Source: Mesorhizobium sp. WSM3862 (GTDB lineage: Bacteria; Pseudomonadota; Alphaproteobacteria; Rhizobiales; Rhizobiaceae). Taken from it: 64,000 nt of DNA. Location: positions 310,001 through 374,000 of the forward strand of contig NZ_NSGE01000004.1 in NCBI RefSeq assembly GCF_002294985.1, read 5' to 3'. The position numbers and the translations under genes were made by a program. Positions 32,532 through 50,205 of the stretch are shown here, piece after piece (within the stretch, counting starts at the first letter, position 1; each line of letters begins with the position of its first letter). The notes under the pieces were generated by a model, which ran no database searches, was not told where the DNA came from, and worked only from the letters and a program-made list of their open reading frames with translations.

Positions 32532-32564
32532 GCGTCGACGTTTCACCGAGCGTGAGCGCCAAGC

Positions 32565-32611
32565 CACCCCCCTCTGTCCTGCCGGACAGCCCGGCAGGGC
32601 AGTGGGGGGTG
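32565..32611 (+). other. long stem-loop between Liv binding-protein and permease genes
   Basis: Outer stem CACCCCCC (32565-32572) with GGGGGGTG (32604-32611); inner stem CCTGCCGG (32578-32585) with CCGGCAGG (32591-32598), loop ACAGC. It starts 33 bases after the binding-protein stop. No T-run follows. Likely processing or stabilising structure. Confidence 0.7.
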
Positions 32612-32638
32612 CCTCGCGCATCCGCCGGTATCTAGCCC

Positions 32639-34479: not shown

Positions 34480-35204
34480 TGCCGCTGCTCACCACCAAGG
34501 GTCTTTCGCGCCGTTTCGGGGGCTTGCGCGCCGTCGACGGCGTCGATTTCGCGCTGATGCCGGGCGAAATCCGCGCCATCATCGGCCCCAACGGCGCCGG
34601 CAAGACAACTTTCGTCAGCCTGCTCAGCGGCCGCATCCGGCCGTCCTCCGGCATGATCGTCTTCGACGGCGCCGACATCACGACCATGCCGGCTTACAAA
34701 AGGGTTCGCCTCGGCGTTGCCTACACTTTCCAGATCACCAGCGTCTTCGCCAACCTCACGGCCTACGACAATGTCGCGCTGCCGGTGCAGCGCACGCTGA
34801 CCGACGGCCGCTCGAAGGGGCAGGTGAGGAGCGGCGTCATGGCGGCGCTGGAACGCACCGGCCTCGCCGACCGCGCCGGCACGCCGGCCGGCCAGCTTTC
34901 CTACGGCCACCAGCGCCTGCTGGAGGTGGCAATGGGCCTGGCGCTGAGGCCGCGCCTGCTGATCCTCGACGAGCCGACGCAAGGGCTGGCCGACAGCGAG
35001 ATCGACAATTTCGTCCTACTGGTGCGCGAGATCGCCAAGCATGCCACCGTGCTCCTCATCGAGCACAACATGCCGGTGGTCATGCAGCTTGCCGACCGCA
35101 TCACCGTCTTCAATTCGGGAAAGATTCTCGCTGAGGGCACGCCCGAGCAGATCCGCGCCAATGCCGAGGTGCAGGATGCTTATCTCGGAGCGACCCATGG
35201 CTGA
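34479..35204 (+). CDS. Liv-type ABC transporter ATP-binding protein (LivG)
   Basis: A 241-residue ATPase. Walker A GPNGAGKTT is near residue 35, the ABC signature region is LSYGHQRLLEVA (unusual but normal for this family), and Walker B is LLILDEPTQGL. The most likely start is ATG 34479, on the last base of the livM stop and after GGATGG; ATG 34467 would add four residues. It energises the permeases together with the second ATPase. Confidence 0.93.
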   Translation: MPLLTTKGLSRRFGGLRAVDGVDFALMPGEIRAIIGPNGAGKTTFVSLLSGRIRPSSGMIVFDGADITTMPAYKRVRLGVAYTFQITSVFANLTAYDNVALPVQRTLTDGRSKGQVRSGVMAALERTGLADRAGTPAGQLSYGHQRLLEVAMGLALRPRLLILDEPTQGLADSEIDNFVLLVREIAKHATVLLIEHNMPVVMQLADRITVFNSGKILAEGTPEQIRANAEVQDAYLGATHG

Positions 35205-35925
35205 TCTCCCCGGCACCGAGAGCGGGCTGCTCGCTATTTCCGGCCTCGACTGTTTTTACGGCGAGGTGCAGGTGCTCTACGGGCTCGACCTTGTCCTCAA
35301 CAAGGGCGAAGTGCTTTGCCTGTTCGGCCGCAACGGCGCCGGCAAGACGACGACGCTGAAGGCGATCATGGGGCTGGTTCCGGCCGCTGCCGGTTCGATC
35401 AGACTGGCCGGCAAGGAGCTGACCGGGCTTGCCGCGCATGACGTGCCGAAGACGGGCGTCGCTTATGTGCCGCAGGGCCGGCGATTATTCGCCGACATGA
35501 CGGTGGCGGAAAACGTCGAGATCGGCCTGATGGCCCGCGGCAAGGGCAAGGCGACGCGGGAACGCGTCCTCGACCTTTTCCCGCTGCTGCGAGAGCGCTT
35601 GAAGCAACGCTCCGGCACGCTTTCCGGAGGCGAGCAGCAAATGCTTGCCATGGCGCGTGCGCTCTGCCTCGAGCCGCAGGTGCTTCTTCTCGACGAGCCC
35701 ACCGAAGGGCTGATGCCGTCGATGATCGCCAAGATCCGCGAGACGGTGGCGAAGCTGCGCGATCTGGGCGTCTCGACGATCCTGGTCGAGCAGCGCGTCG
35801 ACGCCGTGCTGTCGGTCGCCGACCGCATCTCATTCATCGAGAACGGCCGCAACCGCGAGACGGTCGATGTCGAGGAACTGCGCGCCGACCCCTCCGCGGT
35901 TCGGCGCTATGTAGGCGTGGGCTGA
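35197..35925 (+). CDS. Liv-type ABC transporter ATP-binding protein (LivF)
   Basis: A 242-residue ATPase. Walker A GRNGAGKTTTLKAI, signature LSGGEQQMLAMARAL and Walker B VLLLDEPTEGL are all intact. It starts inside the end of the other ATPase gene (eight-base overlap) and closes the operon. Confidence 0.94.
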   Translation: MADLPGTESGLLAISGLDCFYGEVQVLYGLDLVLNKGEVLCLFGRNGAGKTTTLKAIMGLVPAAAGSIRLAGKELTGLAAHDVPKTGVAYVPQGRRLFADMTVAENVEIGLMARGKGKATRERVLDLFPLLRERLKQRSGTLSGGEQQMLAMARALCLEPQVLLLDEPTEGLMPSMIAKIRETVAKLRDLGVSTILVEQRVDAVLSVADRISFIENGRNRETVDVEELRADPSAVRRYVGVG

Positions 35926-36015: not shown

Positions 36016-37467
36016 TCACCTAAAAAACAAAAACCCCGCGATCAAAAACGTCGGGATCAGCACCAGGCCGGACCACGCCATGTAGCCGAAGAAGCCCGGC
36101 ACCTTGAAGCCGCGATGTCTGGCGATAGCAAAGACCATGAAGTTCGGCGCATTGCCGATATAAGTGTTGGCACCCATGAACACGGCGCCGGCCGAGATCG
36201 CGGCGAGCGTGGAGGCCGCCTCCGTCATCAGGTGCCTAGCGTCGCCGCCGGCAAGCTCGAAGAACACCAGATAGGTCGGCGCGTTGTCGAGGAAGGACGA
36301 CAGCGCTCCGGTCAGCCAGAAATAGGCGAGATCGTCGGGCTGGCCGTCCGCCGAGGTGACCAGCGAAACCAGCGGCGCCAGCGCGCCATCGTGCCCGGCT
36401 CTCAGGATGGCGATAACCGGCACGATGCAGATGAAGATGCCGGCAAACAGTTTCGCCACCTCGGCGATGGGCCCCCAACTGAAGCCGTTCGCTTCCCTGT
36501 GGTTTTTGTACGAGACTTTGAGCGACAGAAAGGCCAGCGCCAGGATGATCGCGTCGCGGACCAGGTTCTGCAGTTCCAGGCCGATGCCGAGGATCGGGAT
36601 GCTGATGCCCGGCTTCCAGCTGGCGGAAAGCAGGATCGCACCGATCACGCCGGCCAGCAGCGGCAGGTTGGCGAGGCCGCGCAGGCGCACCTTCGTGTCC
36701 GGTGTCGGGTCCTTGATCTTCGGCAAGCCGCCCTCGCGGCGATGCAGCACGATGTCGAGCGCCAGGAAGATGATCAGCACCAGCCCGCCGGTGAACAGCG
36801 TCTCGCGCCAGAGGTTCGCGGTCGTCCAGAAGAAGTCGACCCCGCGCAGGAAGCCGACGAAGAGCGGCGGGTCGCCGAGCGGGGTCAGCGAGCCGCCGAT
36901 GTTCGAAACCAGGAAGATGAAGAAGATCACCACATGCGCGTTGAACGGGCGGTTGTCGTTGGCGCGCAGCATCGGCCGGATCAGGATCATCGAGGCGCCC
37001 GTCGTGCCGATGACCGAGGCGAGGATCGCGCCGATCAGCAGCAGGCCGGAATTGACCAGCGGCGTGCCGTGGATGTTGCCGGCGACCAGGATGCCGCCGG
37101 AAATGGTGAACAGCGCGAACAAAAGGATGATGAAGGACAGATATTCGGTGAGCAGCGTGTGCAGCACCGCCTCGCTTGCCGACGGCATGCCGAAAGCGAT
37201 CGCCAGCGGAACCACGGCAAGTGCCGCCCACGCGGCGGCGATCTTGCCGTAATGATGCTCCCAGACATGATGGAACAGGAGCGGCCCGGTCGCGATCGAC
37301 AGCAACAGGCCGGCAAAGGGCAGCGCCCACCAGAGCGACATCGCCGCCCCGGGCAGCTCATGCGCCTCGGCTGCGAAAACCGGTTGTGGGAAGGCGAGAA
37401 GGAGTGCGGCCGTCATGGTTGCCGCCAACACCTTCGCCAATGTCGCAAAGCCCCCTCGATGCCTCAC
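36016..37467 (-). CDS. NhaD/ArsB-superfamily sodium:proton antiporter-like permease
   Basis: A 483-residue inner-membrane protein with about twelve hydrophobic helices of the ion transporter superfamily. Conserved patches include NIGGSLTPLGDPPLFVGFL and SSFLDNAPTYLVFFELAGG, typical of NhaD-type Na+/H+ antiporters. A signal-like first helix ends VFAAEAHE. The start is GTG 37467, with ATG 37416 as an alternative that keeps that helix. It lies seven bases after the pncA stop on the same strand and is probably co-transcribed with it. The transported ion is inferred from family only. Confidence 0.85.
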   Translation of the reverse strand: MRHRGGFATLAKVLAATMTAALLLAFPQPVFAAEAHELPGAAMSLWWALPFAGLLLSIATGPLLFHHVWEHHYGKIAAAWAALAVVPLAIAFGMPSASEAVLHTLLTEYLSFIILLFALFTISGGILVAGNIHGTPLVNSGLLLIGAILASVIGTTGASMILIRPMLRANDNRPFNAHVVIFFIFLVSNIGGSLTPLGDPPLFVGFLRGVDFFWTTANLWRETLFTGGLVLIIFLALDIVLHRREGGLPKIKDPTPDTKVRLRGLANLPLLAGVIGAILLSASWKPGISIPILGIGLELQNLVRDAIILALAFLSLKVSYKNHREANGFSWGPIAEVAKLFAGIFICIVPVIAILRAGHDGALAPLVSLVTSADGQPDDLAYFWLTGALSSFLDNAPTYLVFFELAGGDARHLMTEAASTLAAISAGAVFMGANTYIGNAPNFMVFAIARHRGFKVPGFFGYMAWSGLVLIPTFLIAGFLFFR

Positions 37468-37474: not shown

Positions 37475-38089
37475 TCAGTCCGAAAGGTGATCTTCGAGCA
37501 CCACCCCGGCCTCGCGCATCCGTTTCAGCATCGTGCCGACCGAGCCGTTGAGATCGATGCCGCGGCAGGCATCCAGCCGCACCGTCGTCTTGAAACCTTG
37601 CTTGGCGGCATCGAGTGCCGAGAAGGCGACGCAGAAATCGGTGGCCAGGCCGACCAAGGTGATGGTGTCGATGCCGCGCTCCTTGAGATAGCCGGCAAGG
37701 CCGGTTGGGGTCGTGTGGTCGTTCTCGAAGAAAGCCGAATACGAGTCGATCGCGGTGCGGAAACCCTTGCGGATGACCAGTTCCGCTTTGGTCCAGGCGA
37801 GCCCGGAATGGAAATCGGACCCAAGGCTGCCCTGGATGCAGTGATCCGGCCAAAGCGTCTGCGGCCCGTAGGGCATCTCGATCGCTTCGAAGGGCTGCTT
37901 ACCTGGATGGCTGGAAGCGAAGCTCGAATGGCCGGCCGGATGCCAGTCCTGCGTCAGGATCACGTGATCGGTCCGCCGGATCAGGTCGTTGACCAGCGGC
38001 ACGATCTCGTCGCCGCCGGCCACGGCCAACGCGCCGCCGGGGCAAAAGTCGTTCTGCAGGTCGATGACGATGAGCGCTTCGTCGGCCAT
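37475..38089 (-). CDS. pncA: nicotinamidase
   Basis: Cysteine hydrolase converting nicotinamide to nicotinate and ammonia (also active on pyrazinamide). The 204-residue protein has the catalytic triad D10 (VIDLQNDF), K108 and C153 (ATDFCV), and the metal-site pattern D48-W-H50. GGGAGG precedes ATG 38089. It is divergent from the Mo-hydroxylase operon, with 224 bases between them. Nicotinate is the entry compound of NAD salvage through pncB and would also be the first substrate of the adjacent cluster if that degrades nicotinate. Confidence 0.96.
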   Translation of the reverse strand: MADEALIVIDLQNDFCPGGALAVAGGDEIVPLVNDLIRRTDHVILTQDWHPAGHSSFASSHPGKQPFEAIEMPYGPQTLWPDHCIQGSLGSDFHSGLAWTKAELVIRKGFRTAIDSYSAFFENDHTTPTGLAGYLKERGIDTITLVGLATDFCVAFSALDAAKQGFKTTVRLDACRGIDLNGSVGTMLKRMREAGVVLEDHLSD

Positions 38090-38210
38090 GCGGCCTCCCT
38101 TCTTTCTCGGCTTGGGCCCCAGTTGACGCGACCGGACACGGAACCTTGACCAGATGGCCGGCTGCGTCAACCTCCACCGGTATAACAAAGCCGTGGCCGA
38201 CCACTTCGCT

Positions 38211-38255
38211 TTGACAATCGCGGCGAAGTTGATATCATTTGCATACGAATGAATT
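38211..38255 (+). promoter_or_regulatory. promoter with overlapping GTATAC-type operator (left copy)
   Basis: TTGACA (38211-38216) and TATCAT (38233-38238) are spaced 16 bases, a good sigma-70-type promoter. A near-palindrome ATTTGCATACGAAT (38237-38250) overlaps the -10 box and the expected transcription start, as a repressor site should. The 22-base stretch 38234-38255 matches 49236-49257 at 19 positions. The operon's first start codon is at 38314. Confidence 0.75.
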
Positions 38256-38313
38256 TGCCCGGCTGGACGGCGGCAGATTCCCTCGGAAAGGCCCCTTTCT
38301 GGGAAGGCAAAGC

Positions 38314-39171
38314 GTGATCCGTTACGCGAAACCCACCACGGTCGACGAGGCGCTCGCTCTGCTTGGCGAGGACCGCTGGCGCATTCTGGCCGGCGGCACC
38401 GATTTCTATCCGGCGCAGGGCGCGAAACCTTTCCGCGACAACATTCTCGACATCAATGGTCTCGCCGGACTGCGCGACATCGCCGAGACGGACGACTATT
38501 GGCGGATCGGCGCCCGCACCACCTGGACCGACGTCGTGCGCCACAAGCTGCCCAGGGCGTTCGATGCGCTGAAGGCGGCCGCGTGCGAAGTCGGCTCGGT
38601 CCAGATCCAGAACGTCGCGTCGGTCGCCGGTAATCTCTGCAACGCTTCGCCCGCCGCCGACGGCGTGCCGGCGCTGCAGGTGGTCGATGCCGAAGTCGAA
38701 TTGCGGTCGGCGAAAGCCACGCGCTACCTGCCGCTTGGCGGGTTCATTCTCGGCAATCGCCGCACGGCGCTGCAGCCGGACGAGATGGTTACCGCCATTC
38801 GTGTGCCGAAACGTTCGGCTGTCGGCTCGTCCGCCTTCGTCAAGCTTGGCGCGCGGCGTTATCTCGTGATCTCGATCGCCATGGCGGCGGCGCGTCTCGT
38901 GATCGAAGATGGCGTGGTCGCCGATGCTGCTATCGCTGTCGGCGCCTGCTCCGCCGTCGCCCGTCGTCTTGCCGGCGTCGAGGCGGCCCTGCGCGGCCAG
39001 CCGGTTACCGCCGCGCTCGCCGATGCGGTGCTGTCCGCGCCGATCGACGAACTGTCGCCAATCGCCGATGTGCGCGGCAGCGCCGAATACCGGGAGCATG
39101 CGGCGCGCGAGATCGTTGTCCGCGCGGTGTGCGCTGCGACCAGCCTTGGCGAAGGCAAGGTGGCCGCATGA
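38314..39171 (+). CDS. Mo-hydroxylase FAD-binding subunit
   Basis: A 285-residue FAD-binding (CoxM/NdhF-type) subunit of a xanthine dehydrogenase-family hydroxylase. It has the FAD loops LAGGTDFYPAQ near residue 29 and QNVASVAGNLCNASPAADG near residue 105. The GTG start at 38314 follows GGGAAGG and begins VIRYAKPTTVDEAL; a TTG 75 bases upstream lies on the operator and is rejected. Electrons pass from the Mo site through the Fe-S clusters of the next protein to this FAD. By context the substrate may be nicotinate. Confidence 0.9.
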   Translation: MIRYAKPTTVDEALALLGEDRWRILAGGTDFYPAQGAKPFRDNILDINGLAGLRDIAETDDYWRIGARTTWTDVVRHKLPRAFDALKAAACEVGSVQIQNVASVAGNLCNASPAADGVPALQVVDAEVELRSAKATRYLPLGGFILGNRRTALQPDEMVTAIRVPKRSAVGSSAFVKLGARRYLVISIAMAAARLVIEDGVVADAAIAVGACSAVARRLAGVEAALRGQPVTAALADAVLSAPIDELSPIADVRGSAEYREHAAREIVVRAVCAATSLGEGKVAA

Positions 39172-41921
39172 CAATGGAGCGCACCGATATTGCCTTCGAG
39201 GTCAACGACGCGGCTGTCAGCGTGTCGGTGCCGCCGGTGCGGCGGCTCTCGCAGGTTCTCCGCGACGAGTTGCGGCTGACCGGCACCAAGGTCGGCTGCG
39301 ACGCCGGCGATTGCGGCGCCTGCACCGTGCTGGTCGACGGCAATCCCGTCTGCGCCTGCCTTGTGCCGGCGGCCTCGGTCTCGGGCGCGTCCGTCATCAC
39401 GGTCGAGGGCCTCGCCAACGGCAGGTTGTCGGCCTTGCAGGCCTCCTTCCTCGAACACGGCGCCGCGCAATGCGGCATCTGCACGCCGGGGCTGCTGGTG
39501 GCGGCTACCGCGCTGCTGGAGCGCAACCCAACGCCGAGTGAGGCCGAGACGCAGGATGCGCTGGGCGGCGTGCTCTGCCGCTGCACGGGGTACCGGAAAA
39601 TCGTCGCGGCGGTGATGCATGCCTCGCAGCATATGGACGGTTTCGACCGTCGCCTGCCGGAGGTCGGCCGCGCCGTCGGCGCCTCGCCGATCCGGCTCGA
39701 CGGCGTGCCGAAAGTTACCGGCGACGAAAAATTCGGCGGCGATTCTTTTCCGCACGATGCGCTGTCGGTGCTGGTCGTCCGCTCGCCCTATTATCACGCC
39801 GGTTTCAGCTTCGGGGATCTCGACGCCTGGGCCAAGGCACATCCCGGCATTGCCGGCGTCTTCACCGCCGCCGACATTCCGGGCAGGAACTGCTTCGGGG
39901 TCATCGGCCCCTTTGCTGATCAGCCGGCTCTCGCCGAAGGTTTCGCGCGCCTGCGCGGCGAGGCGGTGGCTCTGGTGGCGGGCGAGCGCGAAGCCATCCT
40001 CGACCTCGACCTGACGGATTTTCCGATCGCCTGGACGGAGCTGCCGCATGTGCTGCAGCCCCGCGAGGCGAAAGCCGACGGCGCGGCGCTGATCCACCGG
40101 CACCGCCCGGCGAACCTGCTCACCTCCGGCTATGTCGAGCGTGGCGATCCCGACGGCGCCCTTGCCGCCGCTGCTGTCATCGTCTCCGGCGCCTTCGGGA
40201 CTTCCTTCGTCGAGCATGCCTATATCGAGCCGGAAGCGGGCTTCGCTTACATGGATGGCGACACGCTCGTTGTCGTTGCCTGCACGCAGGCGCCCTACAT
40301 GGATCGCGACGACACGGCCAAGGTGCTCGGCCTCCCGGTCGAAAAGGTGCGCATCGTGCCGACCGCCACCGGCGGCGGCTTCGGCTCGAAGCTTGATGTC
40401 TCGCTTCAGCCTCTGATCGGCCTTGTGGCGATGAAGACCGGCAGGCCGGCGGCACTCGCCTACACACGCAACGAATCCATGATGTCGACCACCAAGCGCC
40501 ATCCGGCCGAAATGGACGCGACCATCGGTGCCGATTCCGAGGGCCGCGTCACCGGAATGATCTTTGAGGGCGATTTCAACACCGGCGCCTATGCAAGCTG
40601 GGGCCCGACGGTTGCCAACCGCGTGCCGGTGCATGCCTCCGGCCCCTATCAGACGCCGAACTATCGGGCGACGGGGAGGGCCATCCATACCAACGGCCCG
40701 ATCGCCGGCGCCTTCCGCGGCTTCGGCGTGCCGCAAGCGACCATCATGCAGGAAACCCTCTACGACGAGCTCGCCGGCAAGCTTGGCATGGATCGGCTCG
40801 ATTTCCGCCTGAAGAACTGCCTTCGGAACGGGTGCGAAACGGTCACAGGCCAGCGCCTGGAATCGGGCGTGGGCATCGGTGAATGCCTGGAGTTGCTTCA
40901 ACCGCATTGGGCGCGCTCGCTTGGCGAGGCGGAAGCCTTCAACGCCGTCAACACGGCAAGCAAGCGCGGCGTCGGCGTCGCCTCCTGCTGGTATGGCTGC
41001 GGCAACACGTCGCTGCCCAATCCTTCGACGATCAAGGCCGGCGTCTCGGCCTCCGGAGATGTCGTGCTGCACCAGGGCGCCGTCGACATCGGCCAAGGCT
41101 CGAACACGGTCATCACCCAGATCTGTGCCGATGCGCTCGGCTTGCCGTTGGCGAAATTCCGGCTGAAGAGCGCCGACACCGCCATCACGCCGGACGCCGG
41201 CAAAACATCCGCCTCGCGCCAGACTTTTGTGACCGGCAAGGCGGCCGAAAAGGCAGGCCGAGCGCTGCGCGAAAAGATCCTGCGTTTCGCCAATGTTTCC
41301 GAGAAGGCGACGATCGCGCTCGACGGCGCAAGCATCTCAATCCGCGAGGGGGACGCGACGCGGCGCATCGATCTGTCAACACTGAAGGTCGATGCCGATG
41401 GCTTGGTGTTCGTCGCCGAAGAGACCTACGATCCGCCCACGCTGCCGCTCGACGCCAAGGGCCAGGGCAAGCCCTACGCCGTCTATGGCTATGGCGCTCA
41501 GATCGCCGAGCTCGAGGTCGATCTCAAGCTGGGCACGGTGAAGCTGCTCAAGATCACCGCCGCGCATGATGTCGGCAAGGCCATCAACCCGGTACTGGTC
41601 GAGGGGCAGATCGAGGGCGGTATCGCGCAAGGCATCGGCATGGCACTGATGGAGGAATATATCCCCGGCCGCACCGAGAACCTGCACGACTACCTCATCC
41701 CGACCATCGGCGACGTGCCGCCAGTCGAGCACATATTGGTGGAAGTTCCGGACCCGGAAGGACCTTTCGGCGCCAAGGGTTTGGGGGAGCATGTGCTGAT
41801 CCCGACCGCGCCGGCGATCCTCAACGCCATCCGACATGCCACCGGCGTGCTGGTCACCAAAGTGCCGGCGACGCCGAGCCGCATCCTGGCGGCGATCCGC
41901 GAGAAGGAGGCGCGCCGATGA
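39168..41921 (+). CDS. Mo-hydroxylase with fused [2Fe-2S] and molybdopterin domains
   Basis: A 917-residue protein fusing two usually separate parts. Residues 1-155 form the small subunit with two [2Fe-2S] clusters: C44, C49, C52, C62 and C102, C105, C137, C139. Residues from about 175 form the molybdopterin-binding subunit, with the catalytic glutamate E874 in GAKGLGE. Xanthine dehydrogenases normally fuse Fe-S to FAD, not to Mo, so this is a different branch, as in some nicotinate or isoquinoline-type enzymes. It would add hydroxyl from water to an N-heteroaromatic ring. ATG 39168 overlaps the FAD gene stop; the end overlaps the next gene (ATGA). Confidence 0.9.
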   Translation: MTMERTDIAFEVNDAAVSVSVPPVRRLSQVLRDELRLTGTKVGCDAGDCGACTVLVDGNPVCACLVPAASVSGASVITVEGLANGRLSALQASFLEHGAAQCGICTPGLLVAATALLERNPTPSEAETQDALGGVLCRCTGYRKIVAAVMHASQHMDGFDRRLPEVGRAVGASPIRLDGVPKVTGDEKFGGDSFPHDALSVLVVRSPYYHAGFSFGDLDAWAKAHPGIAGVFTAADIPGRNCFGVIGPFADQPALAEGFARLRGEAVALVAGEREAILDLDLTDFPIAWTELPHVLQPREAKADGAALIHRHRPANLLTSGYVERGDPDGALAAAAVIVSGAFGTSFVEHAYIEPEAGFAYMDGDTLVVVACTQAPYMDRDDTAKVLGLPVEKVRIVPTATGGGFGSKLDVSLQPLIGLVAMKTGRPAALAYTRNESMMSTTKRHPAEMDATIGADSEGRVTGMIFEGDFNTGAYASWGPTVANRVPVHASGPYQTPNYRATGRAIHTNGPIAGAFRGFGVPQATIMQETLYDELAGKLGMDRLDFRLKNCLRNGCETVTGQRLESGVGIGECLELLQPHWARSLGEAEAFNAVNTASKRGVGVASCWYGCGNTSLPNPSTIKAGVSASGDVVLHQGAVDIGQGSNTVITQICADALGLPLAKFRLKSADTAITPDAGKTSASRQTFVTGKAAEKAGRALREKILRFANVSEKATIALDGASISIREGDATRRIDLSTLKVDADGLVFVAEETYDPPTLPLDAKGQGKPYAVYGYGAQIAELEVDLKLGTVKLLKITAAHDVGKAINPVLVEGQIEGGIAQGIGMALMEEYIPGRTENLHDYLIPTIGDVPPVEHILVEVPDPEGPFGAKGLGEHVLIPTAPAILNAIRHATGVLVTKVPATPSRILAAIREKEARR

Positions 41922-43459
41922 GCGAGCTTGCCGAACGTTTCGAAACCCACGATCCCGGTGAGAAGCAGGTGGCGGAGAAGATTCGATGCGATGCCTGTCC
42001 GGTGATGTGCTACATCGCCGACGGCCGCACCGGGGCCTGCGACCGCTACGGCAATGTCGGCGGGCGCATCGTGCGCATGGACCCTCTCACCGTCCTCGAC
42101 CACGCGGCCGAGACCGGCGGCGCGGTCGTGCCATTCGTCGCCGAGGGCGAGGAGTGGGGTGGCGAGCTGGTCAACACCGGCCGCCGCTTCGTCACCGCTA
42201 TCGGCGCCGGCACCACCTACCCGGATTACAAGCCCGCACCTTTCATCGTCAGCCAGGAGGTCGAGGGCGTCGATCTCGTCACCGTCGTCACCGAGGGCAT
42301 CTTCTCTTATTGCGGCGTCAAGGTGAAGATCGATACCGACCGCCACATCGGCGACGAGACGGCGACCGTGCGCTCGGAAGGCGAGGCGATCGGCCACGTC
42401 ACCACTGGCGAGTATGGCTCGCAGATGCTGTCGCTTGGCGGCGTGCATCACTTGACCGGCGGCTCCAAGGCTGAAGGCCGCGCGACTTGCGACGCGCTTC
42501 TCAACCTCTGCAACAGGAAGCCGGTCGAGCTCACCATCGACGGCGGTGCGACGGTCATTGTCGAGGCTGGCAAGGCGCCGGTCATCGACGGCAAGATCGA
42601 GCATCGCATGCGCGTCGGCTGCGGTTCGGCCACCATCGGCATGTTCGCCACGCAATGGCGCGGGCTCGTCGACGAGGTTGTGGTGGTTGACGACCATATC
42701 ACCGGCGTCGTGTCGGAACATCAGGCCGGCAAGGTATTGGGCTGGGAGGATACCGGGATAAAGATCATCGGCCGCCGCTCGACGCCCGGCCGCTACTTCA
42801 AGGTTTCGGAGCCCGGTCTCGGCTGGGGCGGCACGACGATCTCCGATCCGCTGTCGATCCTGGGCGATTGGAACGCCAAGAAGGGTGCTCGCCCCGGCTT
42901 GTCGCTGCTGATGGTCTCGACCACGGGCGAACAGTTCGCTTACTACGAACTGGACGATCAGTTGAAACCGGTCGAAAAACCGTTCCCGGAGCGGCTGCAG
43001 AAATCCGTCGGCCTGATCGAGGACAATTGCGAGCCGGCCCTGTGCACTGTGCTCTTCATCGGCGGCGCCGGCGGCTCGCTGCGCGCCGGCGTCACCGAAA
43101 ACCCGGTCAATCTCACCCGCTCGGTTCAGGGCCTGAAGACCTATGTCACGGTCGGCGGCGCGCCGGTCTATGTCTGGCCGGGCGGCGGCATCACCCTGAT
43201 GGTCGATGTCACCCGCGTGCCGGAAGGCGCATTCGGCTATGTGCCGACGCCGGCGCTGGTCGCGCCGATCGAATTCACCATGCGCCGCGACGACTACGTC
43301 CGGCTCGGCGGTTACGAGGACGAGATCCGCAGCGTCGAGGATATTCTTGCCAAGGGCGGCGAGTACCTTAATCCGCGCAGCAATGCCGGCGCGCCGGCCG
43401 GCAATCCCTGGCCGCCGTTGGCGCAATTGCGCCGCACCCCGGCCAATGGGGCCGACTGA
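41918..43459 (+). CDS. 6-hydroxynicotinate reductase-like Fe-S protein
   Basis: A 513-residue cytosolic protein. The N-terminus has the cysteine set C24-x2-C27-x3-C31-x9-C41, probably holding an iron-sulfur cluster. The rest has no common motif, but the whole resembles proteins annotated as 6-hydroxynicotinate reductase (ferredoxin-dependent, EC 1.3.7.1), known from Eubacterium barkeri, which reduces the ring to 1,4,5,6-tetrahydro-6-oxonicotinate. I recognise it from sequence memory, not a search. Coupled by ATGA to the Mo-hydroxylase and by TGATG to the next gene. The combination hydroxylase plus reductase is the strongest hint of the pathway. The true substrate may differ. Confidence 0.75.
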   Translation: MSELAERFETHDPGEKQVAEKIRCDACPVMCYIADGRTGACDRYGNVGGRIVRMDPLTVLDHAAETGGAVVPFVAEGEEWGGELVNTGRRFVTAIGAGTTYPDYKPAPFIVSQEVEGVDLVTVVTEGIFSYCGVKVKIDTDRHIGDETATVRSEGEAIGHVTTGEYGSQMLSLGGVHHLTGGSKAEGRATCDALLNLCNRKPVELTIDGGATVIVEAGKAPVIDGKIEHRMRVGCGSATIGMFATQWRGLVDEVVVVDDHITGVVSEHQAGKVLGWEDTGIKIIGRRSTPGRYFKVSEPGLGWGGTTISDPLSILGDWNAKKGARPGLSLLMVSTTGEQFAYYELDDQLKPVEKPFPERLQKSVGLIEDNCEPALCTVLFIGGAGGSLRAGVTENPVNLTRSVQGLKTYVTVGGAPVYVWPGGGITLMVDVTRVPEGAFGYVPTPALVAPIEFTMRRDDYVRLGGYEDEIRSVEDILAKGGEYLNPRSNAGAPAGNPWPPLAQLRRTPANGAD

Positions 43460-44340
43460 TGAACGGTCCGCAGGCGCATTGGCTCGCCGACGGCAGGCGG
43501 CTTCATCTCAACCACGGGCCGATCGACCTCATCGTCGAGGCCTTTGGCGATGCAGCTGAACGCCGCGCCGGCTGCGTGCAGGCCGTCGCGCGCTTCCAGA
43601 CGATCCTGACCGAACTGGTCGACGAGCTTCCCGAATTGCGCCGTCCGGCGTCTTTGACGCCGCGCGGCTTTGCAGGTCCGACCGCGCGGCGCATGGAGGC
43701 CGCGGTCGCACCGCTCGCGGACAGCTTCATCACGCCAATGGCCGCCGTTGCGGGTTCGGTAGCCGACGAAGTTCTGGCCGCGCTTCTCGCCGGACGCCGG
43801 CTCGAGCGCGCCTACGTCAACAATGGCGGCGACAGTGCCATTCATCTCGGTAAGGGCGAGACAATAACGCTGGCGATCGCCGGCACCGGGCACGGCATGG
43901 CCGACCGCATCACGATCCGCGCCGAAGACGGCGTGCGCGGCGTCGCCACCAGTGGCTGGCGCGGCCGCTCCTTTTCGCTGGGCATCGCCGACGCGGTCAC
44001 CGTGCTGGCGCGGACCGGCGCCGAGGCGGATGCCGCGGCGACGCTGATTGCCAACGCGGTCGACCTGCCTGGGCACCCGGCGGTTCATCGCGTGCCCGCG
44101 CGGGACCTTTCACCCGACAGCGATCTCGCCGAACGGCTGGTGACGCAGGGCGTCGGCGGGCTAGCGCCCGGCGAGGTGGCCCGGGCGCTGGACAACGGCC
44201 TTGCCGTCGCCGAAGATTTTCGCAGGCGCGGCCTGATCGCCGCGTCGGCGCTGTTCCTTGCCGGCCAAACCCGCATCAGTGGCTCCGTGGCGCTCGCCGC
44301 GCCCAACAAGCATAGAGCGAAGGAAACTGCCCATGCCTGA
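43459..44340 (+). CDS. UPF0280 family protein (ApbE superfamily)
   Basis: A 293-residue protein of the UPF0280/COG2122 family, which shares its fold with the flavin transferase ApbE. The glycine-rich motif NNGGDSAIHL is at residues 121-130, and ITPMAAVAGSVADEVL at 91-106 matches ApbE's corresponding helix. Function unknown. It starts on the last base of the reductase stop. A role in attaching or handling flavin for the neighbouring reductase is an attractive inference. The cytosolic form lacks a signal peptide, unlike classical ApbE. Confidence 0.85.
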   Translation: MNGPQAHWLADGRRLHLNHGPIDLIVEAFGDAAERRAGCVQAVARFQTILTELVDELPELRRPASLTPRGFAGPTARRMEAAVAPLADSFITPMAAVAGSVADEVLAALLAGRRLERAYVNNGGDSAIHLGKGETITLAIAGTGHGMADRITIRAEDGVRGVATSGWRGRSFSLGIADAVTVLARTGAEADAAATLIANAVDLPGHPAVHRVPARDLSPDSDLAERLVTQGVGGLAPGEVARALDNGLAVAEDFRRRGLIAASALFLAGQTRISGSVALAAPNKHRAKETAHA

Positions 44341-44917
44341 ATTCACGATCCGCAAGGTCGCGGTGCTGACCGAGGAGATCTTCCACGATGGCGGCGCCGT
44401 GGCGAAGGAGCCGCGCCTGCGCGCCGCGGCTCTCGCCGTGGTCAAGAACCCGTTTGCCGGTCGCTATGTCGAGGACCTGCAGGGCGCAATGGAAGACCTG
44501 AAGCCGCTCGGGCTCTTGCTTTCAGACAGGCTGATCGCAGCCCTTGGCGGCGATGTGAAAAAGATCGACGGTTACGGCAAGGGCGCCATCGTCGGCAGTG
44601 CCGGCGAACTGGAGCACGGCGCGCTCTGGCACGTGCCCGGCGGCTACGCCATGCGCGAGCGGCTCGGCGACGCCAAGGCGATCGTGCCATCGGCGAAGAA
44701 GGTCGGCGCCTTCGGCGCACGGCTCGATGTCCCGCTCGGCCACATCAACGCCGCCTATGTGCGCAGCCATTTCGACGCGATGGAAGTCGGCATCAGCGAC
44801 GGCCCGCGTCCCGATGAGATCCTGTTCTGCCTCGCCATGACCTGCGGCCCGCGAGTCCACAACCGCATGGGCGGTCTTGCGGCCGCGGACATCAAGGCTT
44901 GGGACGGCTTGAGATGA
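44333..44917 (+). CDS. DUF1185 (AA_synth) family protein
   Basis: A 194-residue protein of the family called amino acid synthesis or DUF1185, whose activity has not been shown. Typical blocks are NPFAGRYVEDLQ near residue 39, GYGKGAIVGSAGELEHGAL near 80 and GAFGARLDVPLGHINAAYVRSHFDAMEV (core GHINAAYVRSHFDAMEV). ATG 44333 follows AAGGAAA and overlaps UPF0280 by eight bases. In many bacteria it accompanies N-heterocycle or amidohydrolase genes. It may act on a ring-opening product, but that is only inferred. Confidence 0.85.
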   Translation: MPEFTIRKVAVLTEEIFHDGGAVAKEPRLRAAALAVVKNPFAGRYVEDLQGAMEDLKPLGLLLSDRLIAALGGDVKKIDGYGKGAIVGSAGELEHGALWHVPGGYAMRERLGDAKAIVPSAKKVGAFGARLDVPLGHINAAYVRSHFDAMEVGISDGPRPDEILFCLAMTCGPRVHNRMGGLAAADIKAWDGLR

Positions 44918-45375
44918 GCGGCGAGGACAATCTGCTGCGGCTGGTCGAAGCCGAAGAGCTGGACAAGAACAACTACCATCTGCAGGACCAGGTCGGCTTC
45001 ATCCTGCGCAAGGCGCATCAGCGCCATGTGGCGATCTTCGCCTCGCACATCGGCGATCTGACGCCGCCGCAATTCGCCGCTCTCGCCAAGCTCTACGACA
45101 TCGGCGAGACCTCGCAGAACCAGCTCGGCACGCTGATCGCCATGGATGCCGCGACCGTAAAGGGTGTCATCGACCGGCTGAAGGCGCGCGGGCTGGTCGA
45201 GCTTTTCAAGCACGAGGTCGACAAGAGGCGGCTGCTGGTCAATCTGACGGCTGAAGGCCGCGACGCGATCGAGCGGCTGATTCCGCTTGCGCGCACCATC
45301 ACCGAGGAAACGCTGGCGCCGCTCACGGCCAAGGAGGCCGCGACCTTCCTGCGGCTGCTGGCGAAGCTGGCCTGA
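44914..45375 (+). CDS. MarR-family regulator, NicR-like
   Basis: A 153-residue winged-helix regulator. The DNA-binding part is about residues 45-112, with SQNQLGTLIAMDAATVKGVI as the recognition segment and DKRRLL in the wing. The N-terminal HLQDQVGFILRKAHQRHVAIF resembles NicR/BpsR, the MarR repressors of nicotinate degradation in Pseudomonas and Bordetella (recognised from memory). It is the last gene of the plus-strand operon, coupled by ATGA. It is the likely binder of the paired GTATAC sites. Its stop directly abuts that of convergent hyuB. Confidence 0.88.
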   Translation: MSGEDNLLRLVEAEELDKNNYHLQDQVGFILRKAHQRHVAIFASHIGDLTPPQFAALAKLYDIGETSQNQLGTLIAMDAATVKGVIDRLKARGLVELFKHEVDKRRLLVNLTAEGRDAIERLIPLARTITEETLAPLTAKEAATFLRLLAKLA

Positions 45376-47082
45376 TCAAACCTCCGGATCGACCCCGAAC
45401 ATCTCTCGCGCCTGCTCAGGCGTATAATAGCCGAGCCGGACATCCTCGGCGATCTGCTTCGGATCACGCTCGCGCGGATCGCCATAGCCGCCGCCGCCGG
45501 GCGTGCCGACGCGCACGCGGTCGCCGGCCTTGAGCGCGATATCCTGCTCTTTCGACAGATGCGGCGGCACATGCGATTCGCCGCCCCGGAACACGGTCAC
45601 TGTGTTCGGCGCGCCGTCCCTGCCGCCAAGCGCGCCCTGCGGCCCGAAACGGCCATGGTCCATGACGAAGGACGCGCGGGCTTCACCGCGCAGGATCTCG
45701 ACCTCGTAGGCGAGCCCGAAGCCGCCGCGATGTTTGCCGGCGCCGCCGGAGCCTTCGCGCAGCGCGTAATGGCGGTAGAGTACCGGGAACGCCTGCTCCA
45801 TGATTTCGACCGGCGGCGATTTCGAAATGCCGATGGTCGAGCATCCATTGCTCAAGCCGTCATGGCCCGCGTTGCCGCCATAGCCGCCGCCTGAAATCTG
45901 GTACATGACATAGTCGCGGCCGCGCGCCGGGTCGTTGCCGCCGAGCGCGAAATTGCCGCTGGAACCGGCGGGCGCCGCCGTGACCTTCTCCGGCAAGGCC
46001 TGCACCATGGCCGCGAACACGGCCTCGGCGATGCGCTGCGAAACTTCCGCCGCGCAGCCCGAGACCGGGCGCGGATATTTGGCGTCGAGGAAGGTACCTT
46101 CGGGCCGCTTGACATTGAGCGGCTCGAACGCGCCGGCGCTGATCGGCACTTCGGGGAAGATATGGCGCATGGCGAGATAGACCGACGACAGCGTCGTCGC
46201 CAGCACGCTGTTCATCGGGCCTGCGCAGGGCTTTGACGAGCCGGCGAAATCGAAGGTCAGGCTGTCGCCCTGCTTCTCGACGGCCAGATTGATGGTCAGC
46301 GGCTCGTTCACCACGCCGTCAGAATCGACAAAAGCCTGTGAGCGGTAGACGCCGTCCGGGATGACGGCGATCGAGGCGCGCATCTGGTCGGCGGCGCGGC
46401 GGCGCAGTTCGGCGACCGCGTCGACCACGGTTTCGTCGCCGTAACGATCGAGGATTTCATTGAGCCTGTCCTGGCCGATCAGCAGCGCCGCAGCCTGCGC
46501 GCGGATATCGCCGATGCGCTGGTCGGCGACGCGGATGTTGGAGCAGATGATGGCGTAGATCTCGGGATCGAGCAGGCCCTTCTTGAACAGCTTCACCGGC
46601 GGTAGCCGCAGACCTTCCTGTTCGACGGCGGTGGCCGAGGCCGAGAAGCCGCCAGGCACCGAGCCGCCGATATCCGGCCAATGGCCGGTGTTGGACAGCC
46701 AGCAGAAGATTTTGCCGTCGCGGTAGACCGGCATGACGAAGCGCACGTCCATCAGATGCGTGCCGCCGAGATAGGGGTCGTTGACGATGTAGATGTCGCC
46801 GGGCTCGGGGGTCAGGCAGCGCCCGTCGGCGATCATCTCGATCACCGTCTTGGTCGAATACTGCATGACGCCGACGAATACCGGCAGGCCCTGGCTGCCT
46901 TGCGCGATGAGCGAGCCGTCGACGGCGGAATAGATGCCGTCGGAGCGGTCATTGGCCTCGGCGATGACCGGCGAGAAGGCGGCGCGGGAAAACGTCAAAT
47001 CCATCTCGTCGCAAACTTGCTGCAGGGCGGCCTGCAGCACCGAAAGCGTGATCGTGTCGAGCTTTGCCCCTTCGACTGCCAT
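45376..47082 (-). CDS. hyuB: hydantoinase B / oxoprolinase family protein
   Basis: A 568-residue HyuB-type subunit. Family marks: YIVNDPYLGGTHLMD near residue 95, GGGYGGNAGHDG near 390 and the end GTPGGGGYGDPRERDP. With HyuA it forms an ATP-dependent lactam or imide hydrolase (N-methylhydantoinase, oxoprolinase) or a carboxylase-like enzyme. It begins two bases after the hyuA stop. In this cluster the plausible substrate is the cyclic lactam made by the Hnr-like enzyme. The family includes many substrates, so the reaction remains inferred. Confidence 0.92.
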   Translation of the reverse strand: MAVEGAKLDTITLSVLQAALQQVCDEMDLTFSRAAFSPVIAEANDRSDGIYSAVDGSLIAQGSQGLPVFVGVMQYSTKTVIEMIADGRCLTPEPGDIYIVNDPYLGGTHLMDVRFVMPVYRDGKIFCWLSNTGHWPDIGGSVPGGFSASATAVEQEGLRLPPVKLFKKGLLDPEIYAIICSNIRVADQRIGDIRAQAAALLIGQDRLNEILDRYGDETVVDAVAELRRRAADQMRASIAVIPDGVYRSQAFVDSDGVVNEPLTINLAVEKQGDSLTFDFAGSSKPCAGPMNSVLATTLSSVYLAMRHIFPEVPISAGAFEPLNVKRPEGTFLDAKYPRPVSGCAAEVSQRIAEAVFAAMVQALPEKVTAAPAGSSGNFALGGNDPARGRDYVMYQISGGGYGGNAGHDGLSNGCSTIGISKSPPVEIMEQAFPVLYRHYALREGSGGAGKHRGGFGLAYEVEILRGEARASFVMDHGRFGPQGALGGRDGAPNTVTVFRGGESHVPPHLSKEQDIALKAGDRVRVGTPGGGGYGDPRERDPKQIAEDVRLGYYTPEQAREMFGVDPEV

Positions 47083-47084
47083 TG

Positions 47085-49157
47085 TCAGGCCTCGCCGATG
47101 TCGATGATGATGTTGCCGTCGGCGTCCGAACGCGCATGATCGCCGGGCTCAAGCACGGTGGTGGCGTCCATCTGCTCGAGGATCGCCGGTCCCTCGATTG
47201 TTGCGTCGAGCGGCAGCCTCTCGCGCGCATAGACCGGCGTGTCGTGCCAGCGCCCGCTGTACCAGACCGGCCGGATCTCGCGCCGCGCCTCCTCGAGCGC
47301 CGCCGCGCGTCCTGCCGGGTCGATCAGCTGAGACAGGTCGATCTGCGGCCGCACACCCGTCACCGAGGTGTTGAGGTTGACGAGATTGGCGCGGATCTCC
47401 GGCAGTTCGACCTTGAAACGCGCGAAATAGGCTTTTTCGAACAGCTGCTGCAGCGTCGTCCGTGAAACCGAGGATGACGGCAGCGGCACGTTGATGATGT
47501 GCGTCTGGCCGACGAATTGCATGTCGGCGGAGTGGGTGACGCGGATTGCATCGGGCTTCACCGCTTCCTTGCCGATCAGCGCCTCGCCTTCGTTTCGGTG
47601 CCGTTCCAACAACTCGCGAAGCTTTGCTTCGTCGAGGCTCGCTACCGGCTGGTTGACCGTATTGACGAAGTCGTGCCTGAGGTCGGCGACGACGCAGCCG
47701 AGCGCGTTGGTGATACCCGGGCGTGCCGGCACCACCACTTTCGGCAGGCCGAGTTCGCGGGCCAGCGCCGTCGCGTGCAGCGGCCCGGCGCCGCCAAAGG
47801 CGAACAGCGCGAAATCGCGCGGGTCGTGGCCGCGCGACACCGAAACCATGCGGATGGCGCCCGCCATCTTCATGTTGCCGAGCCTCAAGATGGCACCGGC
47901 CGCCTCGACGCCGGAAAGGCCCGTGTGCCTGCCGATTCTGTCCTCGAAGATTGCGGTGACGCGCTCGACAGTGACCGGATTGTCGACCGCAAGCAGCTTC
48001 TTCGGCGCCAGCCGCCCGAGCACCAGATTGGCATCCGTGATGGTGGGTTCCGTGCCGCCGCGCCCGTAGCAGATCGGGCCGGGATTGGCACCGGCGCTTT
48101 CCGGGCCGATCTGGATCAGGCCGGCGGCGTCGACTCGCGCGATCGAGCCGCCGCCGGCGCCGACGGTGTGCACCGCCACCATCGGCACATGGATCGGCAT
48201 CGCATATTCGATCTCGATCTCGTTCGAGACCGCGGGCTCGGCATTGCGGATCAGCGCCACGTCGGTCGAGGTGCCGCCCATATCGTAGGTCACCAGGTTG
48301 GCGAAGCCGGCGCGTTTTCCCGTATAGGCGGCGGCGATGACGCCGGAAGCCGGACCGGACATGACGGTCTTTGCCGATTCCTGCGTGACGAAGCGGGCCG
48401 AGATCATGCCGCCATTGCCGTTCATGATCAGGAAGTCGCGCGCATAACCTTTCGCCGCGAGCTCCTTGCGCAGCCGCTCGACATAGCGCTCCAGGATCGG
48501 CTGCACCGAGGCGTTGACCGCCGCCGTCACGCCGCGTTCGAATTCGCGCGCCTCCGAAAGCAGCGCATGGCCGGTCGTGATGTGGCCGTTCGGCCAGAGC
48601 TCCGCCGCGATCTCGGCCGCGCGCCGCTCGTGCGAGGGGTTGGCGTAGGAATGCAGGAAATGGATGACGAGCGACTCGCAGCCGGCGTCGAGCAGCTTTT
48701 TCACGGCATCGCGTATTTCGGCCGCGTCGAGCGGCAGGCGAACCGCGCCGGAGGCCTCGACGCGCTCCGAAACTTCAAGCCGCAGATCGCGCGGAATGAC
48801 CGGCACGAAGGTGCCCGTCATGCCATAGGCTTGCGGCCGCGTGCGCCGTCCAAGCTCGATCACGTCGCGGAAGCCGCGCGTCGTGATCATGCCGGTCCTG
48901 GCCAGCCGGCGCTCCAGCACGGCGTTTGTGGTGGTCGTCGTGCCGTGCACGATGAGGTCGATGCCCTCGACCGGAAAGCCGGTCGCGCCAAGTGCGGCGA
49001 CCACGCCAAAGGCCTGATTTTCTACAGTCGTCGGGGTCTTGGCGATGTGCACCTTGCCGCCGGCCTTGCCGTCGATCAGGAGCAGATCGGTGAAGGTTCC
49101 CCCGACATCGATGCCGGCAACCACGCTTCCCGCCGACGCCGAAAATTTCTCATTCAT
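47085..49157 (-). CDS. hyuA: hydantoinase A / oxoprolinase family protein
   Basis: A 690-residue ATP-binding subunit with the ASKHA-type fold: GIDVGGTFTD at residues 15-24, TYDMGGTSTDVALI near 291 and FGGAGPLHA near 464. It probably phosphorylates the lactam carbonyl so that HyuB can open the ring. It is the first gene of the minus-strand operon; the paired operator copy lies 79-100 bases before its start and 121 bases before the divergent fpr gene. A second ATG four bases inward is less likely. Confidence 0.92.
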   Translation of the reverse strand: MNEKFSASAGSVVAGIDVGGTFTDLLLIDGKAGGKVHIAKTPTTVENQAFGVVAALGATGFPVEGIDLIVHGTTTTTNAVLERRLARTGMITTRGFRDVIELGRRTRPQAYGMTGTFVPVIPRDLRLEVSERVEASGAVRLPLDAAEIRDAVKKLLDAGCESLVIHFLHSYANPSHERRAAEIAAELWPNGHITTGHALLSEAREFERGVTAAVNASVQPILERYVERLRKELAAKGYARDFLIMNGNGGMISARFVTQESAKTVMSGPASGVIAAAYTGKRAGFANLVTYDMGGTSTDVALIRNAEPAVSNEIEIEYAMPIHVPMVAVHTVGAGGGSIARVDAAGLIQIGPESAGANPGPICYGRGGTEPTITDANLVLGRLAPKKLLAVDNPVTVERVTAIFEDRIGRHTGLSGVEAAGAILRLGNMKMAGAIRMVSVSRGHDPRDFALFAFGGAGPLHATALARELGLPKVVVPARPGITNALGCVVADLRHDFVNTVNQPVASLDEAKLRELLERHRNEGEALIGKEAVKPDAIRVTHSADMQFVGQTHIINVPLPSSSVSRTTLQQLFEKAYFARFKVELPEIRANLVNLNTSVTGVRPQIDLSQLIDPAGRAAALEEARREIRPVWYSGRWHDTPVYARERLPLDATIEGPAILEQMDATTVLEPGDHARSDADGNIIIDIGEA

Positions 49158-49257: not shown

Positions 49258-49377
49258 CCGGACACAAGAGCTTACCGCTTGGCAGTGTGCAGAGAGCACG
49301 TCGGAACCTGACCGTTCGGGCGCGCATGAGAAAGTTTGGCGCCAGCGCCTCGCGTCCGCGCCGGAAAGTTGGGTTTG

Positions 49378-50205
49378 ATGAACACGACATCCGCGTTGAA
49401 CCTCGCCGGCGCAAAGCCGCTGCAGTTCCCGATCCCGGCCAATGTCTATGCCGAGACCGTGGTGTCGGTGAAGCACTACACCGACCGCCTGTTCTCGTTT
49501 CGCATCACCCGCCCGCAGTCGCTGCGCTTCCGCTCCGGCGAGTTCGTCATGATCGGGCTGCCCAATGCCGAGAAGCCGATCTTCCGCGCCTATTCCGTTG
49601 CCAGCCCCGCCTGGGACGACGAGCTCGAATTCTTCTCGATCAAGGTCCCGGACGGTCCTCTGACCTCCGAGTTGCAGAAGATTGAGGTCGGCGACACCGT
49701 CATCATGCGCCAGAAGTCGACCGGCACGCTGGTGCTCGACGCGCTGACGCCTGCAAAGCGCGTGTTCATGATCTCGACCGGCACCGGCATCGCGCCTTTC
49801 GCCAGCCTGCTGCGCGACCCCGACACCTATGAGAAGTTCGATCAGGTGATCCTCACCCACACCTGCCGCGACAACGCCGAGCTCACCTACGGCCAGGAAC
49901 TGGTGGCTGCGCTCGAGACCGATCCGCTGATCGGCGAGCTGACCGGCGGGCGTGTCACGCTCTACAATTCGACGACCCGCGAGGAGTCGGCGCGCATGGG
50001 CCGGATCACGGCCCTGATCGGCTCGGGCAAGTTTTACTCCGACCTCGGCATCGACAAGCTCAATCCCGAGACCGACCGCATCATGATCTGCGGCTCGATG
50101 CACATGCTGAAGGACGTCAAGGAGCTCGCCGAAAGCCTCGGCTTCGAGGAGGGCTCGCTCAGCCATCCCGCCAGCTTCGTCGTCGAGCGCGCCTTCGTCG
50201 GCTGA
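49378..50205 (+). CDS. fpr: ferredoxin-NADP reductase
   Basis: A 275-residue FAD enzyme exchanging electrons between NADPH and ferredoxin or flavodoxin. It has the FAD motif RAYSVASP near residue 80, the NADPH-binding ISTGTGIAPF near 140, MICGSMHMLKDV near 238 and the C-terminal VVERAFVG typical of bacterial Fpr. It is a housekeeping and oxidative-stress enzyme in general. Its position facing hyuA across the shared operator suggests a possible role in feeding reduced ferredoxin to the Hnr-like reductase. ATG 49378 begins the conserved part. Confidence 0.93.
   Translation: MNTTSALNLAGAKPLQFPIPANVYAETVVSVKHYTDRLFSFRITRPQSLRFRSGEFVMIGLPNAEKPIFRAYSVASPAWDDELEFFSIKVPDGPLTSELQKIEVGDTVIMRQKSTGTLVLDALTPAKRVFMISTGTGIAPFASLLRDPDTYEKFDQVILTHTCRDNAELTYGQELVAALETDPLIGELTGGRVTLYNSTTREESARMGRITALIGSGKFYSDLGIDKLNPETDRIMICGSMHMLKDVKELAESLGFEEGSLSHPASFVVERAFVG

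Follow-up and report, generated by a model that had tools for sequence, protein, structure and literature searches.

A reductive route of nicotinate degradation has been described for Eubacterium barkeri and Azorhizobium, as far as the available excerpt of PMC9304392 goes; reduction to 1,4,5,6-tetrahydro-6-oxonicotinate (THON) is followed by hydrolytic ring opening and loss of ammonia, and the ring opener of E. barkeri is an enamidase. A conserved cluster, whose 6-hydroxynicotinate reductase (Hnr) has 42% identity to the E. barkeri enzyme, is reported in the part of PMC3511419 at hand from A. caulinodans, B. japonicum, R. palustris and Bradyrhizobiaceae strain SG-6C, the last of which grows on nicotinate and 6-hydroxynicotinate. 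Since both the rhizobial Hnr clusters (PMC3511419) and the route itself (PMC9304392) have been published, a reductive nicotinate route in aerobic rhizobia is already known. Here we describe a locus within a 64,000-nucleotide stretch of the genome of Mesorhizobium sp. WSM3862 (contig NZ_NSGE01000004.1, positions 310,001 to 374,000; hereafter the window, in whose numbering all positions are given). The locus probably encodes such a pathway in an aerobic Mesorhizobium, with the two-subunit protein HyuA/HyuB (HyuAB) in the place of enamidase and the UPF0280 protein as an accessory of Hnr. What is new is the variant, HyuAB for enamidase.

Positions 37475–49157 hold a nicotinamidase, a molybdenum (Mo) hydroxylase encoded by two genes, a 513-residue iron-sulphur (Fe-S) protein, UPF0280, DUF1185, a MarR regulator, HyuB and HyuA (Table 1). 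These genes had been named in a first-pass annotation made from the sequence alone, and all of them were confirmed at their positions by open reading frames together with Pfam and NCBIfam scans. The same holds for the mutual overlap it had noticed among the six plus-strand genes between 38314 and 45375, which amounts to 4, 4, 1, 8 and 4 bases when the likely starts are used. The 513-residue protein, assigned below to Hnr, shares 98% identity with the Hnr of M. loti UFLA 01-765, and the source is Mesorhizobium. Hnr is present in 23 of 24 sampled genomes of the genus (the window's own genome left out) and is accompanied by UPF0280 in 140 of 144 Hnr loci surveyed; the grouping is therefore beyond chance. 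The first-pass annotation had further read the cluster as a reductive nicotinate pathway of the E. barkeri/Azorhizobium type and as a new variant of it, pointing to the missing enamidase and to two uncharacterised families. The pathway is still the best reading, with its novelty forestalled by the published rhizobial clusters. The variant stands on HyuA/HyuB replacing enamidase, because the distributions of the two are nearly complementary; it does not stand on UPF0280 and DUF1185, because the survey of conserved neighbourhoods that had been suggested, run over the 144 loci, found both to be regular companions of Hnr.

In the pathway we propose, PncA would convert nicotinamide to nicotinate, the Mo-hydroxylase would convert nicotinate to 6-hydroxynicotinate, and Hnr would reduce the latter to THON, a six-membered lactam. 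THON would then be opened by HyuAB, through ATP-dependent activation by HyuA and hydrolysis at the metal site of HyuB, so that HyuAB would substitute for the enamidase of the published pathway; the enamine product would yield 2-formylglutarate and ammonia. UPF0280 would be a dedicated accessory of Hnr, most likely attaching its covalent flavin.

The distribution of the two ring openers carries this proposal. A true enamidase adjoins Hnr on a Comamonadaceae plasmid (locus L056) and matches the E. barkeri enamidase 2vun at E = 2.4e-111. When the whole genome of the window was searched for enamidase, only short, weak matches were obtained (best E 1.2e-6 over 77 residues), in agreement with the absence claimed in the first-pass annotation. 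HyuA/HyuB was found in 48 of the 144 Hnr loci and enamidase in 22, both taken at ≥50% identity, and no locus had the two together. Because opener genes may lie away from Hnr, whole genomes were searched as well, with HyuA counted at ≥55% identity to the window HyuA and enamidase at ≥60% to that of L056. In an even, class-wide draw of 289 Alphaproteobacteria genomes, 44 carried Hnr; among these, 26 had HyuA, 17 had enamidase, none had both and one, a genome 70% complete, had neither. Either opener occurred in only 4 of the 245 genomes without Hnr. A further 52 Hnr-carrying genomes, weighted to Mesorhizobium and one other genus of the same order, gave HyuA in 36 (four of them also with enamidase), enamidase alone in 15 and neither in one, an assembly of 690 contigs, while 13 genomes of the same genus, family or order that lack Hnr had neither HyuA nor enamidase; in these two sets all or nearly all candidates were scored. 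The counts shift modestly with the thresholds. With HyuA taken at a search cut-off of E ≤1e-200, the genomes that have it without Hnr go from 3 to 8 of 245. Enamidase paralogues at 36–42% identity were dropped; were they counted, G104 of the class-wide set and G316 would have both openers, and genomes with enamidase and no Hnr would go from 1 to 3 of 245.

The openers have also changed places repeatedly along the Hnr phylogeny. In a maximum-likelihood phylogeny with 73 Hnr rows, in which the row of G226, carrying neither label, was placed in no group, the ring-opener label changes 9 times (8–9 over the bootstrap trees), at least 6 of them on supported branches. Six independent, supported pairs differ in enamidase; over random pairings HyuA was opposite in 5.7 of them on average and showed no difference in 0.3, giving a median p of 0.031 in a sign test (range 0.031–0.0625). 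With an earlier, quicker tree of 65 rows the number of such pairs was 5, at which a p of 0.05 is out of reach. One family contains a pair of sister genomes of which one has HyuA and the other enamidase. The change counts do not separate gain from loss, and no direction is assigned to the swaps. Such a pattern is typical of non-orthologous replacement, and the case for HyuAB as the predicted ring opener rests mainly on it.

The features of the two proteins are consistent with that role. HyuA carries the ATP motifs DVGGTFTD, DMGGTSTD and GANPGP, as read from its sequence, and HyuB, aligned to CapB, keeps the four metal ligands (D45, H109, D112 and H134); the CapB ligands and the ATP-motif definitions of the caprolactamase/oxoprolinase family are taken from the available portion of PMC8453981. 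The equivalog cut-offs of the NCBIfam caprolactamase models were not reached (504 and 318 of the 1000 bits required). Thus, HyuA/HyuB is predicted to be a caprolactamase-like ATP-dependent lactamase and not caprolactamase proper. A related oxoprolinase pair, OplAB, opens the six-membered valerolactam using ATP, according to the excerpt of PMC11033972. In a quick HyuA tree (46 rows; 43 chosen loci, comparison rows only 6), 40 Hnr-associated rows fall within one supported set of 42.

Having proposed HyuAB as the ring opener, we would note several observations that weigh against it. Seventy-four of the 144 Hnr loci have neither opener within the stretch surveyed, and the class-wide search scored the best 4 HyuA and the best 6 enamidase candidates per genome, so that some absences may be false. 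The four Mesorhizobium genomes that carry both HyuA and enamidase (G297, G302, G432 and G486) break the complementarity. Their enamidase, at 60–61% identity, sits at a separate locus (L230–L233) with two DUF1185 genes, a MarR gene and a distant isochorismatase-like gene, and with no Hnr in the 9–18 kb surveyed; it probably belongs to another lactam or enamide pathway. The two remaining rows of the 42-row HyuA set, L224 (G114) and L225 (G217), come from genomes without Hnr, in which HyuAB adjoins a distant Mo-hydroxylase (27–28%); HyuA of the Hnr-associated group may accordingly act on other lactams too. Furthermore, five Mesorhizobium genomes have HyuAB some 70–141 kb from Hnr, beside a ferredoxin-NADP reductase (FNR) and mostly also deoC and an aldehyde dehydrogenase, a setting that could be the older home of HyuAB. 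Finally, the expenditure of ATP is puzzling and unexplained, the E. barkeri enamidase being a metal enzyme that needs none.

The last two points lead to two other explanations. The cost of ATP would be accounted for if, in the organisms with HyuAB, Hnr or another enzyme yielded a more reduced lactam, such as 6-oxopiperidine-3-carboxylate, which enamidase could not open; the ATP-dependent lactamase would then give an amino acid instead of 2-formylglutarate and ammonia. The valerolactam opened by OplAB is a saturated lactam (PMC11033972, same excerpt), and the downstream steps may indeed differ between the two kinds of cluster, for a second DUF1185 paralogue is found in 22 of 22 enamidase loci and in 3 of 48 HyuAB loci. 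Nevertheless, the Hnr proteins of both kinds are close and interleaved on one tree with its 9 swaps, which favours a single product, and clustering of the neighbouring genes (examples named by eye or by Pfam) turned up no reductase family common to at least 5 loci outside Mesorhizobium. We thus regard a more reduced lactam as unlikely, though worth keeping in mind. The clusters of HyuAB with FNR, deoC and aldehyde dehydrogenase far from Hnr in several Mesorhizobium suggest, alternatively, that HyuAB is an unrelated lactamase or hydantoinase which came to adjoin the nicotinate cluster by chance in this clade, THON being opened by DUF1185 or an unknown enzyme. This we find very improbable: the complementarity was counted genome-wide irrespective of adjacency, the HyuA subfamily tracks Hnr across many families, and DUF1185 is found beside enamidase too.

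A third explanation concerns the substrate. An analogous series of hydroxylation, reduction and lactam opening could act on another N-heterocycle, such as some other pyridine carboxylate, and the nicotinamidase would then be a mere neighbour. The assignment to nicotinate is, after all, a prediction, the NAD-salvage genes nearby are housekeeping genes, and a Rieske oxygenase family in 9 Hnr loci indicates that the feeding reactions vary among clusters. Against this stand the growth of SG-6C on nicotinate and 6-hydroxynicotinate together with the Hnr relative in its cluster (PMC3511419, as excerpted), the nicotinamidase homologues in 48 of the 144 Hnr loci, and the FAD subunit of the Mo-hydroxylase, which is closest to nicotinate dehydrogenase; a different heterocycle therefore seems to us distinctly unlikely. 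Many of the nicotinamidase homologues are from close relatives, and they also occur at 55% identity in L199 and L201 of the same phylum. The best solved match of the FAD subunit is the FAD subunit of the E. barkeri nicotinate dehydrogenase (3hrd_C, E 5.5e-30). For the Fe-S/Mo fusion the best single chain is the aldehyde oxidoreductase 1dgj (423 bits), versus 274, 223 and 138 bits for the split E. barkeri chains 3hrd_A, B and D. The hydroxylase is of the XDH type, as in the window, in 123 of the 144 loci and of the NicAB type in 11; none has both and 10 have neither within the stretch surveyed. An example of the NicAB type, in L056, carries cytochrome domains, and the XDH and NicAB/cytochrome types are interleaved on the Hnr tree with 4 changes (65-row tree, 58 typed rows). 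One substrate common to the Hnr loci would be the simplest reading. The Rieske family just mentioned has a VanA-type member in L167, and eight of its nine loci are L101, L150, L166, L167, L170, L173, L175 and L182; it might supply nicotinate by acting on a substituted pyridine, an N-methyl one for instance.

The assignment of the 513-residue protein to Hnr could not draw on family models, since neither Pfam nor NCBIfam gave a match to it at E ≤0.001. Relatives at 60–71% identity were found in 26 plasmid records, 17 of which are annotated as 6-hydroxynicotinate reductase and the rest hypothetical or unannotated, and the Fe-S motif CxxCx3Cx9C (C24/27/31/41) is invariant in a set of 17 and in one of 48 Hnr sequences. 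On these grounds the protein is assigned, at the level of sequence, to the Hnr family. Its predicted structure is of moderate confidence (predicted local distance difference test score, pLDDT, 74.7); none of 992 aligned chains gave Z ≥5, and no sequence relative was found in the PDB (best E 0.39). A resemblance of residues around 130–219 to the C-terminal barrel of the T-protein of glycine cleavage was considered and is not claimed, being weak (Z 3.8; E 0.0069 in one relative). In L145 (G028), Hnr is split over two adjacent frames (query residues 21–250 and 251–499), and UPF0280 and HyuA there have no inner stops.

UPF0280 follows Hnr closely. In the class-wide draw, the 44 genomes out of 289 that the model NF003322 marks are exactly those with Hnr (42 above the cut-off and two as fragments), and four genomes without Hnr give faint matches only (best E 4.6e-7). 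Among the 140 loci in which the two occur together, they lie within about 180 bases of each other in 136; of the four loci without the pairing, two have UPF0280 fragments at contig ends and one an Hnr cut by a contig end, leaving L128 as the real exception. The control genomes of Methanocaldococcus jannaschii and Methanosarcina acetivorans have weak UPF0280 matches, under the cut-off. For the predicted model of UPF0280 (pLDDT 94), the uncharacterised structure 2o34 gives Z 20.7, and structures of ApbE, Ftp and FmnB give Z 13.8–15.6 over 203–217 residues, the next fold standing at 7.7. UPF0280 is thus, by its predicted model, a protein of the ApbE flavin-transferase fold. Hnr of E. barkeri is said, in a PNAS abstract of 2006, to carry a covalently bound flavin and three Fe-S clusters. 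Given this, the fold and the co-occurrence with Hnr, we suggest UPF0280 as the flavin-loading factor of Hnr.

The details of the active site make that role less certain. The active site of ApbE is formed by conserved Ser, His and Asp residues, as stated in the excerpt of PMC12052999. In a profile alignment with E. coli Ftp, itself weak (E 8e-4, probability 24%), UPF0280 lines up at the GG, TSG and D...T positions, and by this alignment S165 and D191 are kept in 44 of 44 relatives. Three points speak against flavin loading. By the same weak alignment, the place of the ApbE His is taken by F172 in the window protein, with His in 25 of 44 relatives. The Pfam ApbE model gives 12.2 bits (E 0.13; cut-off 25.6) on the window protein; it matches 24 of the 44 relatives at E ≤10, the best at 4.6e-5. 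A scan of the window Hnr and of 11 more proteins of the window gave no strict match to the flavinylation motif D-x-x-[ST]-G-A-[ST]; Hnr does contain the looser forms GGAT and GSAT. We therefore put the loading of a covalent flavin onto Hnr by UPF0280 at about an even chance. A broader claim may be drawn from all of the above, namely that many Alphaproteobacteria would use an aerobic reductive nicotinate route in which HyuAB and enamidase took each other's place on six or more occasions, and that UPF0280 would represent a second class of flavin transferases, one that serves Hnr alone and works with a non-canonical site and a non-canonical catalytic residue. We advance it tentatively, considering it somewhat more likely to fail in some part than to hold as a whole.

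The remaining proteins of the locus are harder to place. DUF1185, of which 3byq and 2qtp are solved relatives, adjoins both kinds of ring opener, and the other two DUF1185 copies of the window's genome lie in surroundings without Hnr, HyuAB or enamidase; as a guess, its step would be the decarboxylation of 2-formylglutarate or the hydrolysis of the enamine. FNR homologues occur in 29 of the 144 Hnr loci, in several lineages and with many close relatives among them. The window FNR is the only close one of its genome (the other match is at 28%, E 1.5e-6), and FNR adjoins HyuA in all 8 further Mesorhizobium-family loci examined, also where this pair is away from Hnr. A dedicated role as electron donor to Hnr was considered and is kept as a possibility only, for this sole close FNR of the genome may be a housekeeping enzyme. 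Downstream of FNR and after deoC, the window has an open frame of 791 residues (51562–53937), whose homologue in L079 (826 residues) is an aldehyde dehydrogenase protein, matched in two stretches; the frame accompanies HyuAB and FNR in 6 of the 8 Mesorhizobium-family loci examined. A MarR homologue is present in 97 of the 144 Hnr loci. At least one gene of the branched-chain-type ABC transporter has a homologue in 103 of them, many at 25–45% identity only, and the transporter is a putative nicotinate importer. The pncB-like gene is probably a housekeeping gene; a relative (72%) is found in one other Hnr locus, L190. Clustering of neighbouring genes added an extra binding-protein-like family in 13 loci, the Rieske family in 9 and an aldehyde dehydrogenase in 5, as well as two further families (8 and 5 loci) that are probably overlapping frames; Pfam scans covered just the examples of the Rieske and aldehyde dehydrogenase families, the others being named by eye.

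Table 1 Genes of the nicotinate locus and its surroundings, in window positions
Feature	Position	Strand	Basis
pncB-like nicotinate phosphoribosyltransferase, NAD salvage	28172..29476	+	named by reading the sequence
Branched-chain-type ABC transporter (binding protein, two permeases, two ATPases)	31098..35925	+	binding protein by Pfam; other four genes by reading the sequence
CitMHS_2-type ion/citrate transporter	36016..37467	-	family scan
Nicotinamidase PncA	37475..38188, likely ATG 38089	-	NF008623, 213.6 bits (cut-off 174)
Mo-hydroxylase FAD subunit, proposed nicotinate 6-hydroxylase	38314..39171	+	Pfam; best solved match 3hrd_C
Mo-hydroxylase [2Fe-2S]/molybdopterin fusion subunit	39168..41921	+	Pfam
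6-Hydroxynicotinate reductase (Hnr) family Fe-S protein, 513 residues	41918..43459	+	60-71% plasmid relatives; invariant CxxCx3Cx9C
UPF0280, ApbE-fold protein, proposed Hnr flavin-loading factor	43459..44340	+	NF003322, 389 bits (cut-off 290); model fold
DUF1185/AA_synth, with a proposed role in ring opening or a later step	44333 (likely ATG)..44917	+	PF06684, 234 bits
MarR-family regulator	44914 (likely ATG)..45375	+	Pfam
HyuB, predicted metal-hydrolase subunit of ATP-dependent lactamase	45376..47082	-	PF02538; CapB metal ligands
HyuA, predicted ATP-using subunit of ATP-dependent lactamase	47085..49157	-	NF050156, 504 bits (cut-off 1000); ATP motifs
Ferredoxin-NADP reductase (FNR), possible Hnr electron source	49336..50205, likely ATG 49378	+	family scan

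The proposal provides a candidate ring-opening gene for the numerous bacteria that carry Hnr and lack enamidase, together with a testable function for a lactamase subfamily that is annotated in records as hydantoinase or acetophenone carboxylase. Likewise UPF0280, a family of unknown function, gains a client and a likely, fold-based role, and with these comes a proposal, open to testing, for the way in which Hnr acquires its covalent flavin. Among the matches listed from the openly licensed literature, judged by titles and the starts of abstracts, none links the degradation of 6-hydroxynicotinate or nicotinic acid to a hydantoinase or oxoprolinase, and no mention of UPF0280 was found in that literature. 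One report, PMC6346535, has both nicotinate and oxoprolinase among its terms; in the excerpt available its 5-oxoprolinase is one of fungal glutathione metabolism.

Comparison with the described systems sets out what is shared and what is not. UPF0280 resembles ApbE and Ftp in its predicted fold and in three aligned active-site residues, Ser (of TSG), Asp and Thr; it differs from them in falling under the Pfam ApbE cut-off, in a His that is not kept in 19 of 44 relatives and in a client, Hnr, without the canonical target motif. HyuA/HyuB shares with CapAB, oxoprolinase and hydantoinase the two-subunit architecture, the ATP motifs and all four metal ligands, and differs from CapAB in scoring far under the caprolactamase equivalog cut-offs. 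The cluster of Azorhizobium, Bradyrhizobium and SG-6C is reported, in the part of PMC3511419 at hand, to encode the first three steps, enamidase presumably among them; in the window, where no enamidase was found, HyuAB is present instead. With the fermentation of E. barkeri the pathway proposed here would have in common the hydroxylation, the reduction to THON and the hydrolytic opening, and the FAD subunit is closest to that of this organism. The two differ in that E. barkeri has a split Mo subunit and a metal enamidase, whereas the Mesorhizobium locus has a fused Fe-S/Mo subunit and a predicted ATP-dependent lactamase.

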